Origin: Hyphomicrobiales bacterium
Lineage (GTDB): Bacteria > Pseudomonadota > Alphaproteobacteria > Rhizobiales > Rhizobiaceae
DNA: 64,000 nucleotides
Direction: 5' to 3'
Assembly: GCA_021775415.1 (NCBI GenBank)
Contig: JAJFHV010000014.1
Span: 1 to 64,000 of the forward strand
The notes under the pieces are model-generated. The model worked only from the letters and a program-made list of their open reading frames with translations. It was not told the origin of the DNA and did not search any database. Position numbers and translations under genes: made by a program. Positions 4,957 to 34,844 of the stretch are shown piece by piece; the stretch's first letter is position 1; every line of letters starts with the position of its first letter.

Positions 4957-4986
4957 CGGAAACATAGATTCGAGAAAGGTTGAGCC

Positions 4987-5184
4987 ATGAAGGCCAGCGA
5001 CGTTCATGCAATGACCCCAGACCAGCTCAAGGATGAGCTGGAAAAACTCAAGAAGGAGCAGTTTAACCTGCGCTTTCAAGGAGCAACGGGCCAATTGGAA
5101 AACACCGCCCGCATCCGTCAGGTTCGCCGTGACATTGCGCGCATTCAGACGATTGCTTCACAAAAGCAGTCTGCTGAGGCTTAA
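4987..5184 (+). CDS. rpmC: 50S ribosomal protein L29
   Basis: 65 residues, an all-helical protein next to L23 at the tunnel exit. The motif [26 protein letters not shown] is the family hallmark (residues about 29-56). Start ATG follows GAAAGGTTGAGCC. Confidence 0.97.
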
Positions 5185-26839: not shown

Positions 26840-26926
26840 GCGGCCGTGGCGGAATTGGTAGACGCGCAGCGTTGAGGTCGCTGTGGGGTAACACCCGTGG
26901 AAGTTCGAGTCTTCTCGGCCGCACCA
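26840..26926 (+). tRNA. tRNA-Leu (anticodon GAG)
   Basis: 87 bases including encoded CCA (26924-26926). Acceptor GCGGCCG (26840-26846) pairs with CGGCCGC (26916-26922). The D arm is GCG...CGC. The anticodon stem CAGCG/CGCTG encloses the loop TTGAGGT, giving anticodon GAG. A long variable arm (GGGGTAACACCC region) marks a class II tRNA, and the T arm GAAG-TTCGAGT-CTTC is intact. Its 3' end is duplicated at 34829-34844. Confidence 0.96.
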
Positions 26927-26928
26927 AG
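26913..26928 (+). repeat. Left copy of tRNA-Leu 3'-end direct repeat (putative att site)
   Basis: The 16-base sequence TCTCGGCCGCACCAAG lies at the tRNA 3' end and is repeated exactly at 34829-34844 in the same orientation. tRNA 3' ends are classic integration sites for tyrosine-recombinase islands. Confidence 0.65.
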
Positions 26929-27293
26929 TGAAAACGACTAAGTTATTGAAAACAAATAAACGTTATCTTCTATAGAAATATTCAATCCACCTTATACCCA
27001 TTCTAACCTTGTTGCTGGCATACGGTGATACCTTGACGCTTGACGGGTCTATTTCAATGTTCGCTTTGGGGGTGAAGCAGAAGCCATATAAAGATTGTTG
27101 AATGTCTACTTATGACCCGTAGCGGACCTTACAGTGCCGTCAACCAAAGTCTGCATTTGCACCCGAAGCAGGCCTCTAGGGGAGAGACCACATGTCTGTT
27201 AAAGTGGCCCTCGCAGATTGAACAATTAGGATAATGGTTTTGCATTGATGAGTGGAACCAATACGACTCCAGTCGTTTGCCCAGGGAAAAGGG
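26927..27293. other. Non-coding stretch after tRNA-Leu
   Basis: No coding frame is convincing here. The stretch 27060-27180 contains degenerate pieces such as ATGTTCGCTTTGGGGG, AATGTCTACTTATGACC and GTAGCGGAC. They recall TGTCCGCTT-type fragments also seen at 43797-43855. It is probably decayed intergenic or element-edge sequence. Confidence 0.4.
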
Positions 27294-27632
27294 ATGAATA
27301 TGAAATACAACATCATGACCTCAGTAGGCTTGACGGCATTCCTATTGTCCTCGCACTGTTTCGCGGCTGGTGAGGTTGATCTGGCTGAGGTGATCGAGCA
27401 GACCAACAACACCTGGTTGGATTTACCCGTTCTTACCAATCGGGCGGTCAAGGTGGGCAAGGTGGTGCAGGTTGTTGTAGCTGCAAACGGCAGCGCCAAG
27501 ACGATCTGGGTCGGTACCAAAGGATCAGGAAAGGAAGGGCTTCCCGATCTTCTGATTTTTTCTCGCAAGGATGTGCTGCTCAAGCGCGACCACGTACGTA
27601 TTAATATGGACGACGCGTCGGCCGGATCATGA
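27294..27632 (+). CDS. Small secreted protein of unknown function
   Basis: 112 residues from ATG 27294 (AGGGAAAAGGG just upstream; ATG 27300 is also possible). The signal peptide is about 1-24, ending FLLSSHCFAA before GEVDL. The mature part is about 88 residues and beta-strand-rich in appearance (VGKVVQVVVAANGSAKTIWVG), with no family recognised. It is the first gene inside the putative island and is convergent with dctM. It has no cysteines after the signal region. Confidence 0.6.
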   Translation: MNMKYNIMTSVGLTAFLLSSHCFAAGEVDLAEVIEQTNNTWLDLPVLTNRAVKVGKVVQVVVAANGSAKTIWVGTKGSGKEGLPDLLIFSRKDVLLKRDHVRINMDDASAGS

Positions 27633-27707
27633 GTCACTTTGTGTGATGGTGGCTCTGTAATACCTCGTGTTCAGAATTCAGCACATTGATTAAGCCCAAG
27701 TTACTTA

Positions 27708-29066
27708 CTACCCGTAGGCAACTGTAGGTAACCAGGTTGCAATCTTGGGAAATGCGAATACCAACCCGACACCAATCAACTGGATAATCATAAAGGGAAT
27801 AATGCCCCGATAAATAGTAACGGTATCAATGCCTTTGGGCGCAACCCCTTTCATGTAAAACAGTGCAAAGCCTACCGGAGGTGTGATGAAAGAAGTTTGC
27901 AGGCAAACGGCAAACAGGATTGCAAACCACACCAGATTAACATCCAGTCCGATCAAAACCGGTGCAAGCAGCGGCAATACGATCAAGGTGATTTCAATCC
28001 AGTCGAGAACAAACCCCAACATAAACGTGATGAGCAATACAACGACAACGATGCCATTTGGCCCGAAAGGTAATGCTAACAAACTATCCTCGATCAGTGC
28101 ATCGCCGCCAAAACCACGCAAGACGAGCGAAAATGCCGTTGCGCCCACGAAAAGGGCAAAGATGTAGGAGGTCGTTTTCATGGTGTTTCGCAGCACTTCC
28201 TGCAGTCCTGCAAACGACAGTCGCCGCCGTGCAACAGCCAGCAACATTGCGCCAAGAGCCCCAACCCCGGATGCCTCGGTAGGTGTTGCGATTCCGAAAA
28301 ATATGCTGCCGAGAACCGCTACAATCAATCCGGCTGGCGGCAAGGTTGATTTGATGACATTGAAGACCAAACGCGGAGTGATTTCCTCTACATCGGGTGG
28401 TGCAGGAGCAACCGACGGGCGCAACCACGCATAAACCAGAATGAACACCCCGTAGAGCCCGCCTAGGATCAGCCCAGGAAACATGGCGCCCATGAACAGA
28501 TCGCCGACGGAAACCCGGATCTGGTCTGCCATTAGAACCAACATGATGGATGGTGGAATCAGGATGCCGAGCGTCCCGGTGGCACACACAACACCACAGG
28601 CAAGAGCCGCATCGTAGTTTTGCTTAAGCATCAAGGGTATCCCAAGTATTGCAAGCAAGACTACGGCCGCACCGATTATCCCGGTCGATGCTGCCAACAG
28701 CACTCCAATGATGACAATCGTTATCGCCAACCCGCCACGGACCCGGCCAAACAGTTTGGTCAAATCAGTCATCAAATCTTCTGCAATACCGGATTTGTCC
28801 ATCATGATTCCCATAAAAACAAACATGGGAAGGGCGACGAGAACCCAGTTGTTCATCACCGCATAAATGCGGGCAACGATAATCGAGCTATAGCCCCAGT
28901 CGACACCAAAAAATGTATCGAGATAATTGTCGGAAAAAACGGATATCCCAGTAAATAGGACCGCAAGTCCACCCATCAGCCAAGCCACCGGAACTCCGGT
29001 AAATATCAAAACAACGAAGGAAACAAACAGGGCAATTGCCATATACTGGGCGGGATCGCTGATCAT
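27708..29066 (-). CDS. dctM: TRAP transporter large permease (DctM type)
   Basis: 452 residues from ATG 29066, one base after the dctQ stop; the longer frame into dctQ is rejected. It has about twelve membrane helices. Conserved stretches are PMFVFMGIMMDKSGIAEDL (about 83-101), GTLGILIPPSIMLVL (about 160-175) and FITPPVGFALFYMKGVAP near the C-terminus. DctM forms the sodium-driven transport channel with DctQ. It is the last gene of the leftward operon. Confidence 0.94.
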   Translation of the reverse strand: MISDPAQYMAIALFVSFVVLIFTGVPVAWLMGGLAVLFTGISVFSDNYLDTFFGVDWGYSSIIVARIYAVMNNWVLVALPMFVFMGIMMDKSGIAEDLMTDLTKLFGRVRGGLAITIVIIGVLLAASTGIIGAAVVLLAILGIPLMLKQNYDAALACGVVCATGTLGILIPPSIMLVLMADQIRVSVGDLFMGAMFPGLILGGLYGVFILVYAWLRPSVAPAPPDVEEITPRLVFNVIKSTLPPAGLIVAVLGSIFFGIATPTEASGVGALGAMLLAVARRRLSFAGLQEVLRNTMKTTSYIFALFVGATAFSLVLRGFGGDALIEDSLLALPFGPNGIVVVVLLITFMLGFVLDWIEITLIVLPLLAPVLIGLDVNLVWFAILFAVCLQTSFITPPVGFALFYMKGVAPKGIDTVTIYRGIIPFMIIQLIGVGLVFAFPKIATWLPTVAYG

Positions 29067-29067
29067 C

Positions 29068-29670
29068 TCATGCTTCCCCGGCTTCACTGGTCGGCCCAAA
29101 TCTAAGAGTGCCGATCACTCGCAGAAGTCGTGAAAGGCCTGCCAAAAGCAAAAGGACAAAGCTGAAGAGAAGACAGCCTTTGATCAACCAACGTGCGCCA
29201 AGCCCATTGGCGGATGTTGAGGTTTCTCCGGTTACCCACGAAAGTTCAACGAATGGGAGGGAATAGTAGATAACGAAGCAGACAAACGGTAAAAACAACA
29301 CCAGCAGGCCCAGCAGCTCAAGCCACATTCGGGTTTTGAAACGCAGATTCTCATAGACAACGTCTACCCGTACATGCCCGTCCTCTACGAATGTGTAAGA
29401 CAGGCCGACCAGCCAGGCTGCCGCATAAAGATACCACTGCAGTTCTTCCAGTTCTATCATGCCCTGACTGAAGACGTATCTCAAAACCACATTGCCAATG
29501 ATAACGACCAGCAAAACAAGCCATAGCCAACCAAAGATTTCACCAATGAATTTCACAGCACGATCGATCATCCGCGAAACTGGATTGTCACGCATTATGA
29601 CGTCGTCGCGATGCGCGATATCCTCGACCGGGTTTAATGGATCTATCTGATGATTTTCGATCTTCGGCAT
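29068..29670 (-). CDS. dctQ: TRAP transporter small permease (DctQ type)
   Basis: 200 residues with four predicted membrane helices. The family pattern LVVIIGNVVLRYVFSQGMIELEELQWYL (about 36-63) is clear. A cytoplasmic N-terminal tail of about 27 residues and a larger overall size resemble the small subunits paired with TakP-like binding proteins. It lies one base from dctM; a 92-base gap with a strong hairpin separates it from dctP. Confidence 0.92.
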   Translation of the reverse strand: MPKIENHQIDPLNPVEDIAHRDDVIMRDNPVSRMIDRAVKFIGEIFGWLWLVLLVVIIGNVVLRYVFSQGMIELEELQWYLYAAAWLVGLSYTFVEDGHVRVDVVYENLRFKTRMWLELLGLLVLFLPFVCFVIYYSLPFVELSWVTGETSTSANGLGARWLIKGCLLFSFVLLLLAGLSRLLRVIGTLRFGPTSEAGEA

Positions 29671-29704
29671 GTCCCCAACCTACCGGTGTCAGCGCCTAAT
29701 GCAA

Positions 29705-29734
29705 CTGCCCTGCCGTCACATGACAGCAGGGCAG
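29705..29734 (-). other. Stem-loop in the dctP-dctQ gap
   Basis: CTGCCCTGC (29705-29713) is exactly complementary to GCAGGGCAG (29726-29734), with GTCA/TGAC continuing the stem inward. There is no T tract on the minus strand. It probably stabilises the dctP message or reduces permease expression relative to the binding protein. Confidence 0.5.
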
Positions 29735-29762
29735 AGCAAGCTTCAACAATCACAAAGTGCGG

Positions 29763-30860
29763 TTATTTAAAGTCACGTGGCAGATATCCCAACTCTTTCC
29801 AAATTTGATAGTTTTCATGGAAAGCCTGTTGTGATGCCCAAACTTTTGCAAACATCGCATCCTTGGCTGATTCTTCTTTCATGATGATGTCAGCAGTCGC
29901 TTTCAACTCATTAATAACCTCATCAGGAAGTTTTGCGGCAGTCACACCCTTGTCGGGGAAGCTCTTGATTTGAGCGCCTTGCAAAGCTTCGCCTATGGTC
30001 AGAGCACGCAAGGTTGCAGCGGTGCAAGCCATCTCAAAGAGGCCTTGGTCTGCGTCACTCAATGCATTCCATTTATCGAGATTGATCATCAGATGTGTTG
30101 ATGTTGACGGTTGGTGCCAACCTGGAAACAGGTTGTACTTGGCAATTTTGTAAAATCCGAGGATTTCGTCGATTGCTGGCATCGAATATTCGGTGGCATC
30201 TAAGGTGCCTTTTTCAAGAGCGCCAAATATTTCGCCGCCTGCCATTAGCGTTGCTGACGCACCAATGCGATCGAGAACCATGCCGCCAAGGCCTGAGAAA
30301 CGAATCTTCAAACCTTTCAAGTCGTCCAGGCTTTTGATGGGTTTGCGGAACCAGCCAGCTGTTTCCGGACCGATAGTGCTACAAAGCAGTGGGTGAATTT
30401 TTTCGGCGTGGTACACCTCTTCAGCCAGTTTTGAGCCTTCACCTTCAAACCACCAGGCAGCATATTCCTGCGGCTCCAAGCCAAATGGCACTGCCGAGAA
30501 CAATACAGCAGCTGGAATGCGACCCTGATCATAAGCCATATAGTTGTAGGCTGCAGGCAAGCTTCCAGAACTGATGGAAGGCGAGATTTCTAGCGGTGGT
30601 ACAATTTTCCCAGGCTCAAATATTTTCAGATTGATGCGACCGTCCGTAACCCTTTTTAGTGATGCGGATACGTTCGCGATTGGATCGCCTAGTGCAGGCC
30701 AGCCTGTGTTGAAGGTCGCCTGGACTTTCCATTTGATACTTTCTTGGGCATCCGCCGGTGTAGATGTTGACCCAATTGCTCCAAGACACACCGCAGAAAC
30801 AGCGGCTATGCTGAATGCACGACGTCCCAAGCTGGTAACTCGTTTTGTAAGCGAAGTCAT
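29763..30860 (-). CDS. dctP: TRAP substrate-binding protein, TakP-like (DctP family)
   Basis: 365 residues. The signal peptide is about 1-38 (Arg-rich start, then FSIAAVSAVCLGAIGS, cleavage near ADAQE). GPETAGWFRKP (about 166), LKGLKIRFSGLGG (about 183) and FGALEKGTLDATEYSMP with FYKIAKYNLFPGWHQPST (about 212-250) match the TakP/monocarboxylate group. Members bind 2-oxo- or hydroxy-acids, which fits the dehydrogenases encoded next to it. The start follows AGGAGGAGAGTAAT. The actual ligand is unknown. Confidence 0.92.
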   Translation of the reverse strand: MTSLTKRVTSLGRRAFSIAAVSAVCLGAIGSTSTPADAQESIKWKVQATFNTGWPALGDPIANVSASLKRVTDGRINLKIFEPGKIVPPLEISPSISSGSLPAAYNYMAYDQGRIPAAVLFSAVPFGLEPQEYAAWWFEGEGSKLAEEVYHAEKIHPLLCSTIGPETAGWFRKPIKSLDDLKGLKIRFSGLGGMVLDRIGASATLMAGGEIFGALEKGTLDATEYSMPAIDEILGFYKIAKYNLFPGWHQPSTSTHLMINLDKWNALSDADQGLFEMACTAATLRALTIGEALQGAQIKSFPDKGVTAAKLPDEVINELKATADIIMKEESAKDAMFAKVWASQQAFHENYQIWKELGYLPRDFK

Positions 30861-30929
30861 ATTACTCTCCTCCTAGTTTAACTCAGTTTGTGTTTTATTC
30901 CAGTTCATTGGAATTCTGGTTTCAGGCGG

Positions 30930-32102
30930 TTAAGCCCAAACATTTCGATAAAGATCCGTTATGTCCTTCTGATCTGCGATTTTGGGGTTTAATGCCGGTG
31001 CTCCCGAGCGCACGGCGTCTTCAGCCATCTGGTCAACAGCTGCAAAATAAGCAGCCTCGTTCAATCCGAATTGAGATAATGATGGAACTTCCAGTCGGCT
31101 GTTGTAACCATTCAGACCGGCTACCAACGCATCGCATGCGCTAACATTATCGTCCGTATCTTTTGCAAATCCCAAGACACGAGCGCAGTCTGCGTATCGC
31201 TCCAAGGCGTAGTCTTTTGAATAGCCCGTAATTGCCGGGAGCAGCATTGCATTACTCATGCCATGTGGGACATGAAACAGACTGCCTAAAGGCCGGCTCA
31301 TCGCGTGTACCAGGGCAATTGATGCATTTGAAAACGCTAACCCCCCAAATGTGGCAGCCAGCATCAGTGCTTCACGGGATGCCATGTTGTCGGGGTCGTT
31401 ATAGGCAGTGTCCAGGTTCTTGGCGACCAGGCGCATACAGTCCAGAGCAAGTCGATCCGAATAGAGTGTTGCCTTGCGGCTCACATAGGCTTCGATTGCA
31501 TGTGTGAGCGTATCAAGCGCGTTATCGGCAATAAGACGCTTTGGCTTCGAAAGTGAAAGTTCGAAATCCACAATTGCAGCGCTTGGTACGAAACCTTCAC
31601 CCCTGCAAGAAATTTTTTCACGCGTTTCATTATGAATTATTACGGTGTGATGAGTGACCTCCGAGCCCGTTCCCGCAGTCGTTGGTATGGCAACCATCGG
31701 CAATCCCGAGCCGTTGAACTGGTTTGGTGGACGGTAGTCTTGAATATCCCGACTGTTTTTTGCCATGACGGCAATTGCCTTGCCCGCATCCAGCGGGCTA
31801 CCCCCACCCAGTCCAATAACACTGTCATGATGGCCACTCTCAAGTGCCCCAATGCCAGCCATTACGACTTCATCGGTGGGATCTGGGAGAACCTCATCAA
31901 ATATTGCGGATGTCAGTCCGGCTTTTTTCAGAAGATTTTGGACACGCTCGGCCAAGCCGAATTCTACCATTACCTTGTCGGTAACAATCAACGGGTTTTT
32001 TGCGTCACCAACCTTGCCGAGAATATCCGCAATTTCAATGAGCGCGCCTTTACCGACACTCAGATATCGAGGTGCACAGATACAGACCGTGTCTCGCAAC
32101 AA
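30930..32102 (-). CDS. Iron-containing alcohol dehydrogenase (DddB-like candidate)
   Basis: 390 residues, type III ADH family. NAD-binding GLGGGSPLDAGKAIAV is at about 97-112 and AIPTTAGTGSEVT at about 138-150. Metal ligands are likely Asp and His in DNALDTLTHAIEAY (about 194-207) and the two His in ALVHAMSRPLGSLFHVPHG (about 262-280). Paired with an MmsA-type dehydrogenase, it may oxidise a 3-hydroxy acid such as 3-hydroxypropionate, as DddB does. That substrate is inferred from gene pairing. It is the first gene of the leftward operon. Confidence 0.88.
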   Translation of the reverse strand: MLRDTVCICAPRYLSVGKGALIEIADILGKVGDAKNPLIVTDKVMVEFGLAERVQNLLKKAGLTSAIFDEVLPDPTDEVVMAGIGALESGHHDSVIGLGGGSPLDAGKAIAVMAKNSRDIQDYRPPNQFNGSGLPMVAIPTTAGTGSEVTHHTVIIHNETREKISCRGEGFVPSAAIVDFELSLSKPKRLIADNALDTLTHAIEAYVSRKATLYSDRLALDCMRLVAKNLDTAYNDPDNMASREALMLAATFGGLAFSNASIALVHAMSRPLGSLFHVPHGMSNAMLLPAITGYSKDYALERYADCARVLGFAKDTDDNVSACDALVAGLNGYNSRLEVPSLSQFGLNEAAYFAAVDQMAEDAVRSGAPALNPKIADQKDITDLYRNVWA

Positions 32103-32178
32103 GCTATCTCCTCATCCCCTAACAACCGGCAAAAAGCGCGACTTCCGGTAGGCAGCCTATTTCAGCGCAACCGGTATT

Positions 32179-32215
32179 GTCAATTAAATGATAAATATTT
32201 TCTCATTTAATTGAC
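32179..32215. promoter_or_regulatory. 13-bp perfect inverted repeat, probable IclR operator
   Basis: GTCAATTAAATGA (32179-32191) is exactly mirrored by TCATTTAATTGAC (32203-32215), with an 11-base AT-rich spacer. It lies in the 170-base divergent region between the ADH and mmsA-like genes, placed to control both directions. The only regulator gene in the module is the IclR-type one at 33854. Confidence 0.65.
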
Positions 32216-32272
32216 TTTAATAAATCAGTGCGCCAGTTTGCAGGCAGCTTTGGCTGCAGAGGAAAATCCAAA

Positions 32273-33769
32273 ATGCAAAGAATTGCTCATCTAATTGGCG
32301 GAGAACCCGCATCATCATCAAGCGCACGCGTTGGGCCTGTATTTAATCCCGCAACCGGTGAACAAACCGCAGAATTGGAGTTGGCGAGCAAGTCTACTGT
32401 TGATAGTGCAATTACCAAGGCTGCGACCGCGTTTGGCGAATGGTCTGCTCGAACCCCCATCAATAGGGCCCGGGTATTGTTTCGCTATAAAGAGTTATTG
32501 AGTGCCAATATGGATGAGTTGGCCGTTTTGGTCAGCCGCGAACACGGAAAAACAATTGATGATGCGAAAGGCTCGATCACCCGCGGCATTGAGATTGTAG
32601 AGTTTGCATGCGGCATTCCGCAATTGTTGAAGGGCGAGTTTTCTTCAAATGTTGGCACTGGTGTCGACAGCTACAATTTGCGTCAGCCTTTAGGGGTTTG
32701 CGCCGGAATAACGCCTTTCAATTTTCCGGCAATGGTACCTTTGTGGATGTTTCCTGTTGCCCTGGCCTGTGGAAACACATTTGTATTAAAACCCTCGGAA
32801 AAAACACCGAGTTGCCCGCTGCGCATGGTTGAACTGGCCCATGAGGCAGGCGTTCCAAAGGACGTGCTGCAGGTTGTTAATGGCGACAAGGAAGCGGTGG
32901 ACACTCTACTCAAAGATGACCGTGTCAAAGCTGTCAGTTTTGTTGGTTCGACTCCTATTGCAGAGTATATCTACCACACAGGCAGCGCCCACAATAAGCG
33001 GGTTCAAGCCTTGGGTGGCGCAAAAAATCATATGATTGTCATGCCGGACGCGGATGTTTCCCAAGTTACAGATGCGTTGATTGGCTCTGCTTTCGGTTCA
33101 GCCGGGGAGCGATGCATGGCCATTTCAGTGGCCGTTTGTGTCGGAGACGACACCGCCGACAGTGTACGTGATTCCGTTGCCAAGGCAGCATCGAACCTCA
33201 ATGTTGGCCCCTACACTGACAGCGATTCCGACTTTGGACCGCTTAGCAACAAGGCTCACATGGACAAGGTTCTATCTTACATCGACAAGGGTGTTGAAGA
33301 AGGAGCCAATCTGGTAGCCGACGGAAGAAACCTGAAACTTCAGGGCTATGAGAATGGCTATTTTGTCGGACCTTGCGTGTTCGATAACGTCAAACCTGAC
33401 ATGACAATTTACAAGGAAGAAATCTTTGGTCCGGTGTTGGGTATTGTAAGACAGGATAGCTATGCAGATGCGCTGAAGCTGGTTGATGAACATGAACTTG
33501 GAAATGGCGCGTCGCTGTTTACAAATGACGGCGGTGTATCGCGCCACTTTATTGAACAAAGCAAAATTGGCATGGTTGGCATAAACGTGCCAATCCCGGT
33601 ACCGGTCGCATACCATAGTTTTGGCGGCTGGAAGCGATCGCTCTTTGGAGATCACCACATGCATGGACCGGAAGGAATCCGGTTTTACACCAAGTTAAAA
33701 ACCGCTACCGTCGCTTGGCCGGGAGGCAAGAAAACCGGGCCAGAGTTCTCCATTCCAACTCTCTCTTGA
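32273..33769 (+). CDS. mmsA: Methylmalonate-semialdehyde-type dehydrogenase (MmsA/DddC-like)
   Basis: 498 residues from ATG 32273 (AGAGGAAAATCCAAA upstream). It belongs to the CoA-acylating ALDH branch. Seen: HGKTIDDAKGSITRGIEIVEF (about 93-113), ITPFNFPAMVPLWMFP (about 145-160), catalytic Cys in GSAGERCMAISVAV (about 276-289) and HSFGGWKRSLFGD near 447. It converts (methyl)malonate semialdehyde to propionyl- or acetyl-CoA. In the DMSP pathway the homologue DddC follows a DddB iron ADH, the same pair as here. It is divergent from the ADH operon and followed by the IclR gene. Confidence 0.93.
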   Translation: MQRIAHLIGGEPASSSSARVGPVFNPATGEQTAELELASKSTVDSAITKAATAFGEWSARTPINRARVLFRYKELLSANMDELAVLVSREHGKTIDDAKGSITRGIEIVEFACGIPQLLKGEFSSNVGTGVDSYNLRQPLGVCAGITPFNFPAMVPLWMFPVALACGNTFVLKPSEKTPSCPLRMVELAHEAGVPKDVLQVVNGDKEAVDTLLKDDRVKAVSFVGSTPIAEYIYHTGSAHNKRVQALGGAKNHMIVMPDADVSQVTDALIGSAFGSAGERCMAISVAVCVGDDTADSVRDSVAKAASNLNVGPYTDSDSDFGPLSNKAHMDKVLSYIDKGVEEGANLVADGRNLKLQGYENGYFVGPCVFDNVKPDMTIYKEEIFGPVLGIVRQDSYADALKLVDEHELGNGASLFTNDGGVSRHFIEQSKIGMVGINVPIPVPVAYHSFGGWKRSLFGDHHMHGPEGIRFYTKLKTATVAWPGGKKTGPEFSIPTLS

Positions 33770-33853
33770 GCTTGATCACCCTCCAGTGAATTTTTGTCGC
33801 GTAGCAAAGGTCAGTTGAGGTATTATGTTGTCGTATTTGGAGTAACAAAAATT

Positions 33854-34624
33854 GTGGACGCTGTGACTGACCAAAAATCAAAACGTAATTCTCCTCGACG
33901 AATTCTCGAGATTATGGAGGCTATATGCCAAAATCCCAAATCCGCTACGGCTTCGGGGTTGTCGCAGTCACTGGATATCCCTGTGCCCACAATATATCGG
34001 TGGCTCGATGCTCTTTGTGAAGAGCGATTTATCGCCGCTCATGCTTCTGGTTACTACGTTCCTGGAGAGCGTTTTCGGAACATGACACTCAATAGTCTGC
34101 AGTACGAGCCCAATGTCACCCTGCGAAGGTCAATCCTTCGGGATCTCTCCGAAGAAATTGGGGAGACCGTCAGTTTGGCCATCCCGCAGGGAACGAAGCT
34201 CATTTATTTCGATCGCCTGGAATCCCATTGGCCGTTTCAAGTCAATCTTCGGGTTGGTGATGCTCTTCCTCTGCATTGCTGTGCATCCGGAAAATTGTAC
34301 CTCTCAACGATGAATACCGAGGCTGCGCTTGGCGTGTTCGGCAGAGTTGCAAAAAAGGAATCTGCAAGAAATACGATCACAAGCCCTTCCAAGTTTCAGG
34401 AGGAACTCTCGAAAATCCGCAAGGCAGGCTATTCTCTCGACAATGAAGAATGGTTTAATGACATGGTGGGTGCTTCAGTACCAATCTTTGGTGACGGTGG
34501 GGCAATTGCAGCTTGCCTTTCTACCCATGCACTAGTCACACGCAAGGCAATCAAGACGTTGCAAGATGAGGTACCGCTGATGCAGGCTGCAGCTAACGAA
34601 CTGAAAGCATGCTTGCTCGGCTAA
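33854..34624 (+). CDS. IclR-family transcriptional regulator
   Basis: 256 residues from GTG 33854 (GGAG about 11 bases upstream); TTG 33794 and GTG 33863 are alternatives. The N-terminal winged HTH spans about 11-70 (SPRRILEIMEAICQNPKSATASGL, then IPVPTIYRWLDAL). The C-terminal effector domain contains LPLHCCASGKLYL (about 138) and AACLSTHAL (about 216). It is downstream of mmsA in the same direction and probably acts at the 32179-32215 repeat. Confidence 0.92.
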   Translation: MDAVTDQKSKRNSPRRILEIMEAICQNPKSATASGLSQSLDIPVPTIYRWLDALCEERFIAAHASGYYVPGERFRNMTLNSLQYEPNVTLRRSILRDLSEEIGETVSLAIPQGTKLIYFDRLESHWPFQVNLRVGDALPLHCCASGKLYLSTMNTEAALGVFGRVAKKESARNTITSPSKFQEELSKIRKAGYSLDNEEWFNDMVGASVPIFGDGGAIAACLSTHALVTRKAIKTLQDEVPLMQAAANELKACLLG

Positions 34625-34828
34625 CTTCATTTGTTGGCCGATTGGTCGATGCTAATAGCGGAAGTCAGCTATCCAGTTCAGCTGCATTCTCCACAGGGCA
34701 GCCATTGGACCGGCACTCTTTCTTCCCTTGCCAGTAACCTGCACCGTAACAGCACGACCATCACTGCCGCTACGCTGCCGTTCGACAAGTCATTGATTAA
34801 ATTCAGTTTGTTGTTTTGGTTTCGTATA

Positions 34829-34844
34829 TCTCGGCCGCACCAAG
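34829..34844 (+). repeat. Right copy of tRNA-Leu 3'-end direct repeat (putative att site)
   Basis: An exact 16-base copy of the tRNA-Leu 3' end (TCTCGGCCGCACCAAG). The preceding TTTCGTATA also resembles the tRNA T-loop side (GTTCGAGTCT) with changes. No tRNA can fold here. The 204 bases from 34625 to 34828 show no supported gene. Confidence 0.65.

Follow-up and report, generated by a model that had tools for sequence, protein, structure and literature searches.

Features of the tRNA-Leu(GAG) locus

The window analysed in this work (64,000 nucleotides, positions 1 to 64,000 of contig JAJFHV010000014.1 from a Hyphomicrobiales bacterium, the contig being called C6 below) carried an intact tRNA-Leu(GAG) gene, a displaced copy of its 3' end 7.9 kb downstream and, between them, a catabolic gene cluster. 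The interval 26913-34844 is very probably a genomic island without integrase, resembling a cis-mobilizable element (CIME) and acquired through site-specific recombination with the 3' end of tRNA-Leu(GAG). The features of the locus, including the left and right attachment sites (attL and attR), were as follows:

26840..26926, + strand: tRNA-Leu(GAG), intact, the target gene (ARAGORN)
26913..26928, + strand: attL core, tRNA 3' end plus AG (16-mer, two copies genome-wide)
26940..26949, + strand: arm-like motif AAGTTATTGA, right of the attL core, with ATTGA at +19 from the CCA end (motif search; putative role)
27300..27632 (frame open from 27252), + strand: open reading frame (ORF) of 110 aa, no family above cut-off (ORF list)
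27708..29069, - strand: dctM, TRAP large permease (TIGR00786, 294.6 bits, cut-off 268.45)
29068..29670, - strand: dctQ, TRAP small permease (PF04290)
29763..30860, - strand: dctP, TRAP solute-binding protein (PF03480; solved relatives)
30930..32102, - strand: iron-containing alcohol dehydrogenase (ADH) in a DddB-like context (PF00465; gene context)
32273..33769, + strand: CoA-acylating methylmalonate-semialdehyde dehydrogenase (MMSDH) family (TIGR01722, 674 bits, cut-off 448.5)
33854..34624, + strand: IclR-type regulator (PF01614)
34787..34796, + strand: arm-like motif AAGTCATTGA, left of the attR core, with ATTGA at -37 (motif search; putative role)
34829..34844, + strand: attR core, displaced copy of the tRNA 3' end (16-mer)

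A first-pass annotation of this DNA had reported that 14 bases of the tRNA end and two more recur perfectly and directly at 34829-34844, and this was borne out: TCTCGGCCGCACCAAG, the last 14 nt of tRNA-Leu(GAG) followed by AG, was located at 26913-26928 and 34829-34844, on the + strand in both cases and 7,916 bp apart, the two cores being identical in 16 of 16 positions. Allowing up to one mismatch, these were the only two matches in the whole genome (3,458,334 bases in 23 contigs, 97% complete), and the reversed control gave none; the 16-mer was not common elsewhere, as the same annotation had warned it might be. Two copies were still found in the window with up to three mismatches (chance average 0.62); a first-order Markov model predicts 1.8e-5 occurrences per 64 kb of one strand and 1.9e-3 for the whole genome. 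A 16-nt repeat as such is not rare (the window contained 11 direct repeats of at least 14 nt, two of them of at least 16 nt); the improbable part is that the repeat is a tRNA 3' end.

Beyond the repeat the two places were unrelated, with 5 of 20 positions identical on the left and 4 of 20 on the right, so that the second copy showed no evident decayed second tRNA. A remnant of a duplicate tRNA-Leu gene would have parallels, the gene being duplicated in three relatives (G014, G020, G036) and accompanied by a partial second copy 119 bp away in a fourth (G054), but nothing tRNA-like stood left of the displaced core and the best 20-nt match to the tRNA body in 34700-34828 reached 11 of 20. This origin, already disfavoured, is very improbable.

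Genes of the interval and search for an integrase

Seven ORFs of the interval were scanned: six were metabolic or regulatory and one was without family, and no gene for integration or transfer was among them. The self-contained substrate-use module proposed in the first-pass annotation was confirmed as a TRAP transporter (dctM, dctQ and dctP), an iron-containing ADH, an MMSDH-family enzyme and an IclR regulator. The “atypical non-coding edges” were also recognised: 42.5% GC on the left (26927-27251) and 49% on the right (34625-34828), vs. 50.5-51.5% outside. The 110-aa ORF gave a sub-threshold PRC-barrel match (15.5 bits, cut-off 21.2) and had no relative in the plasmid or PHROGs searches.

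The Pfam scan of the interval ORFs revealed no integrase, and tblastn with the integrases of four relatives detected no integrase remnant there (best E 0.48 inside; in the right flank the same queries reached 0.011 across 31 residues). Phage_integrase (PF00589) matched six times in the genome, once on the window's contig (C6:123843) and never inside the window; DUF6538 (PF20172) had no match in this genome, so no DUF6538 integrase gene accompanied attL. Neither an integrase nor a transfer remnant was found in the interval, and no parent element was identified.

Integrase-bearing islands at the same tRNA

Sixty-one genomes, the window's own included, were searched, and the query composed of lipB and the tRNA matched in 58 of them. 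DUF6538 matches were present in 34 genomes, and in four (G002, G019, G022 and G029) a DUF6538 gene was located 135-212 nt downstream of tRNA-Leu(GAG) on the same strand. The G029 protein scored above the Phage_integrase cut-off (28 vs. 27.1) and the G019 protein below it (19.6), and both belonged to the PHROGs class “integrase”; the G022 protein ran off its contig, with a SAM-like integrase domain present, and the gene of G002, a member of the window's genus, was read as two overlapping frames.

The G029 island had a second, direct core (GAGTCTTCTCGACCGCACCA, a 20-bp repeat) 43.5 kb downstream, and G019 carried a 15-bp repeat (TCTCGACCGCACCAT) at the tRNA with a displaced copy next to lipB on a different contig; the two ends of that island were therefore not on one piece. 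Both repeats ended at the same CCA as the repeat of the window, in which arm-like motifs also stood at about +19 and -37, the motif having been drawn partly from these same sites. The core search in relatives gave 27 matches in 10 genomes (6 with the reversed control). A 14-mer on contig C19 of G009, where nothing else matched, was discarded as probable chance, and so were the other isolated copies, given the control.

DUF6538 genes were also seen beside other tRNAs: a nearby tRNA (Leu-CAA, Thr, Gly-CCC, Ser, Met, Gln, Gly-GCC or Phe) was noted at 8 of 12 further loci (L138-L149), and at the Gly-CCC site of G056 AAGTGATTGAAA stood 10 nt past the tRNA. The domain, whose name was not met in the literature searched, may mark a tRNA-targeting integrase group. 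A frame piece with LGHSEAKTIEIYTRW directly after the tRNA in G004 (L039, ~4970-5150) resembled by eye the C-terminal end of a tyrosine recombinase; Pfam gave no match to it and it remains a lead only.

Arm-like motifs at both ends

The motif AAGTNATTGA, modelled on the integrase-bearing sites of relatives, was found at only two places in C6:1-137900 (137.9 kb, both strands searched), 26940 and 34787, just inside the two ends of the interval, with about 1.1 matches expected by chance. The ATTGA offsets of the window (+19 and -37) nearly equalled those of G029 (+20 and -36), and the sequences to the right of the tRNA were CAAGTAATTGAAA in G029, CAAGTCATTGAAA in G022, CAAGCCATTGAAA in G019 and TAAGTTATTGAAA in the window. 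Near the ends of tRNA-Leu(GAG) genes, ATTGAAA occurred seven times in 2,821 nt (up to 60 nt from the end) vs. none in 15,980 nt (60-400 nt). The count covers 50 junction rows, of which three had just 0-1 nt to read and some share a genome. The carriers were the window, G009, G011, G019, G022, G029 and G042; the integrase gene was at the site in G019, G022 and G029 alone.

A score of at least 9 of 11 against AAGTNATTGAAA was reached by nine of the 12 tRNA junctions with an integrase gene, whether at tRNA-Leu(GAG) or another tRNA, vs. four of 43 tRNA-Leu(GAG) junctions without integrase, one of them the window, and four of 414 control stretches. The 12 junctions came from 16 integrase loci (12 of these being the best-scoring 12 of 59 DUF6538 matches), four loci having no tRNA and one of the two tRNAs at L145 being omitted. 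In viral contigs, none of the 120 matches listed stood at a tRNA end, for the motif and a scrambled control alike (at least 120 matches each), and these contigs thus gave the motif no support. The motifs may be integrase arm sites. A further ATTGAAA was seen right of attR in G029 (C10, ~60775; L100), at +26, a hint that a second element adjoins the first.

The locus in relatives

Eleven other genomes of the genus were available, three of them at least 90% complete, and the locus was read beyond the tRNA in seven. The left side (rarA, crcB, rluC, atp12, eamA, lipB) was mostly conserved beside tRNA-Leu(GAG), with the tRNA inverted relative to lipB in G011, G015 and G025, and the sequence beyond the tRNA varied by genome in the seven loci: the tRNA-Leu(GAG) locus is a variable junction. 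Integration would have been doubtful if all close relatives had carried the same genes here, as the first-pass annotation had pointed out; the module was present in none of the seven loci.

The right flank of the interval (34845 to ~44000) contained a cbb3-oxidase cluster: ccoNOP, a P-type ATPase and a short-chain dehydrogenase/reductase (SDR). In G004, G010 and G011 the tRNA was followed by typA, mipZ, sdaA, eamA and an HGSNAT-domain gene (G004 and G010 also had mgtE), and the genes after typA in this series are those of the window from ~44.8 kb on; typA itself was located on contig C19 in the window's genome.

Origin of the cargo

A search with the ADH in 397 genomes of the order (E≤1e-100) yielded five, including that of the window. 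G371, a genome of another family, carried the module in the same order, mirrored, with identities of 81% (IclR), 88% (aldehyde dehydrogenase), 80% (ADH), 85% (DctP), 68% (DctQ; 66.5% over the full length) and 86-89% (DctM). The genes were also present in IMCC20636 (CP018226) in another arrangement (62-85%). The other 11 genomes of the genus, only three of them at least 90% complete, gave no close ADH (best 46%). UvrA, the yardstick used, was 85-88% identical in four genomes of the genus (three over the full length, one over 883 residues), 82-85% in G010, where it is split, 81% to G076 and 77% to G371, so that five of the six cargo proteins, all except DctQ, were closer to G371 than UvrA was. 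Against G371, synonymous sites were near saturation (proportion of synonymous differences, pS, 0.77-0.82; ratio of nonsynonymous to synonymous proportions, pN/pS, 0.09-0.31; four of the six genes counted). None of 207 records from a plasmid DNA search covered 80% of the query, and the best 20 of the 207 matched the aldehyde dehydrogenase part only (63-66%).

Predicted function

The predicted pathway begins with uptake of a small hydroxy- or keto-acid through the TRAP transporter; the iron-containing ADH would then oxidise it and the MMSDH-type enzyme convert the resulting semialdehyde to an acyl-CoA, under IclR control. The best guess for the substrate is a 3-hydroxypropionate-like acid, which would be degraded through malonate semialdehyde to acetyl-CoA, though other small acids or a polyol may also be considered. 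The best solved relative of DctP was 2hzk, labelled sorbitol/mannitol-binding SmoM, which we take to be an alpha-keto acid binder; ketoacid- and lactate-binding proteins came next.

Relatives of the ADH (49%), the MMSDH (58%) and the IclR regulator (38%) lay side by side on a plasmid of Pseudomonas sp. MPC6, with a CoA transferase and a BCCT gene ahead of them and a LysR gene behind, presumably a dddD-T-B-C-type layout. Elsewhere, relatives of the ADH and the MMSDH adjoined on a Rhodococcus plasmid, and an ADH relative stood among sugar genes on a Vibrio plasmid. In the passages cited, DddA, DddB and DddC act downstream on 3-hydroxypropionate through malonate semialdehyde, and dddBCDRT synteny is described (PMC9327192). 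The island resembles such clusters in its adjacent ADH, MMSDH and IclR genes, as on the MPC6 plasmid, but encodes a TRAP transporter instead of a BCCT protein; no dimethylsulfoniopropionate lyase, CoA transferase or further candidate for a lyase was found beside the ADH and MMSDH among the interval ORFs. The ADH-MMSDH pair, which has similar neighbours on a plasmid, may act on 3-hydroxypropionate.

Interpretation of the interval

Site-specific integration at the tRNA with no integrase left, as the first-pass annotation had proposed, is supported: relatives have islands with an integrase at this tRNA and with the same end point, each end of the interval has an arm-like motif on its inner side, and the cargo has affinities outside the genus. 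The pairing of the incoming element's core with the tRNA end was most likely the work of a DUF6538-type tyrosine recombinase; judging from the anatomy, the incoming copy would have restored the tRNA at attL and the displaced copy would have become attR. The integrase and any transfer genes would then have been lost, or the cargo might have entered through an integrase acting from elsewhere. What remains (attL, the 110-aa ORF, the six-gene catabolic module and attR) has the anatomy of a cis-mobilizable element. The island may be “stabilised”, a proposal drawn only from the missing integrase.

Several observations weigh against this reading. ATTGAAA followed the tRNA in G009, G011 and G042 with no DUF6538 gene nearby, three of the 12 integrase-bearing junctions were without the motif, and the attR of G019 had none on its left. 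Some of these sites had also served to draw up the consensus, and motif spacing and strand varied among the 12 junctions; the motif score is for these reasons, together with the G019 attR, a support and not an independent test. GC content and codon use, which the first-pass annotation had recommended comparing inside and outside, were not atypical, and neither were the tetranucleotides; composition as proof of foreignness was ruled out, with the island genes within the background on all three measures. The cco segment was missing from this place in G004, G010 and G011, so the right flank is non-syntenic. The empty site envisaged by the first-pass annotation (lipB and tRNA-Leu joined directly to the cco-flanking genes) was looked for in the relatives and no exact one was found; a DNA search with the right flank gave, in the 61 genomes and beyond the window itself, four short matches (68-72%), none in the genus, and an empty site was consequently not obtainable by this search.

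The missing empty site, the abundance of direct repeats in the window and a neighbourhood rearranged to the point of having typA on another contig would also suit a second copy that arose by chance or as the scar of a rearrangement, the module having arrived by homologous or illegitimate recombination ending nearby. The 16-mer is nevertheless unique and placed at a tRNA end, arm-like motifs lie inside both ends and the anatomy matches that of G029 and G019, which makes such an origin unlikely.

An integrase-less island entered at tRNA-Leu(GAG) is of a kind already known: an ordinary acquired island and a well-marked example. CIMEs keep attL and attR, have no integration or transfer genes and carry cargo only (PMC5704250, PMC7563491, in the passages cited), as does this island, which differs in that it is not in tandem with a recognised integrative and conjugative or integrative and mobilizable element and that its origin from one, like its mobility, is putative; the examples in those passages belong to other bacteria. 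Dehalococcoides islands at ssrA are also alike in carrying metabolic cargo between the 3' end of an RNA gene and a short direct repeat (20 bp in their case) with no integrase: the part of the source cited lists 15 without an integration module, and its authors suggested that they are CIMEs (PMC3146451). They differ in the RNA gene and recombinase, tmRNA and a serine recombinase there vs. tRNA-Leu and a putative tyrosine recombinase here. As in the Islander tDNA islands (PMC4383910, in the passages cited), the tRNA gene is intact and a displaced piece of its 3' end follows downstream on the same strand, but an integrase gene in the interval is required there and is absent here.

Given integrase-bearing relatives at the same tRNA, an integrase-free island can be recognised by its attachment-site anatomy, a core with arm-like motifs. 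Within the family, tRNA-Leu(GAG) emerges as a site of repeated integration, and the island indicates a possible route for a small-acid catabolic module between families of one order. More doubtful is the idea that the island is a dormant satellite, both of its attachment sites being still competent, which an incoming DUF6538 integrase for tRNA-Leu(GAG) could excise or with whose element it could fuse. Cargo-only units would in that case spread catabolic modules through the order, overlooked because island finders require an integrase, and genomes could be searched for them by the core with its AAGTNATTGA arms (about +19 and -37).

Right flank and further tRNA-Leu(GAG) pairs

The right flank may be an older insertion or rearrangement. 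As an addition to the integration described above and not an alternative to it, it is conceivable, if somewhat improbable, that the cco/SDR flank represents an island which arrived earlier at this tRNA, the locus being an accretion of two units. The absence of cco genes after the tRNA in the three relatives with typA-mipZ-sdaA there would agree with this, as would the cco clusters located elsewhere in relatives with ccoN (their ccoI 33-34% identical) and the extra G029 motif, placed as if elements had stacked; a third core copy was not found in the window with up to three mismatches, and plain rearrangement explains the flank equally well because typA lies elsewhere in the genome.

Three relatives with a further copy of the tRNA or its 3' end are of note. 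Contig C15 of G014 (80,863 bases; L060, L061) had a tRNA-Leu(GAG) copy at both ends in one orientation, a pattern that would be expected of a large island or a repeat-broken assembly. Contig C1 of G036 (L074, L075) carried two tRNA-Leu(GAG) in one orientation, 88.7 kb apart, with identical first 25 nt after each. The second tRNA-Leu 3' end copy of G054 (C37, 22753-22885; L076), just 119 bp from the first, is perhaps a nearly empty island.

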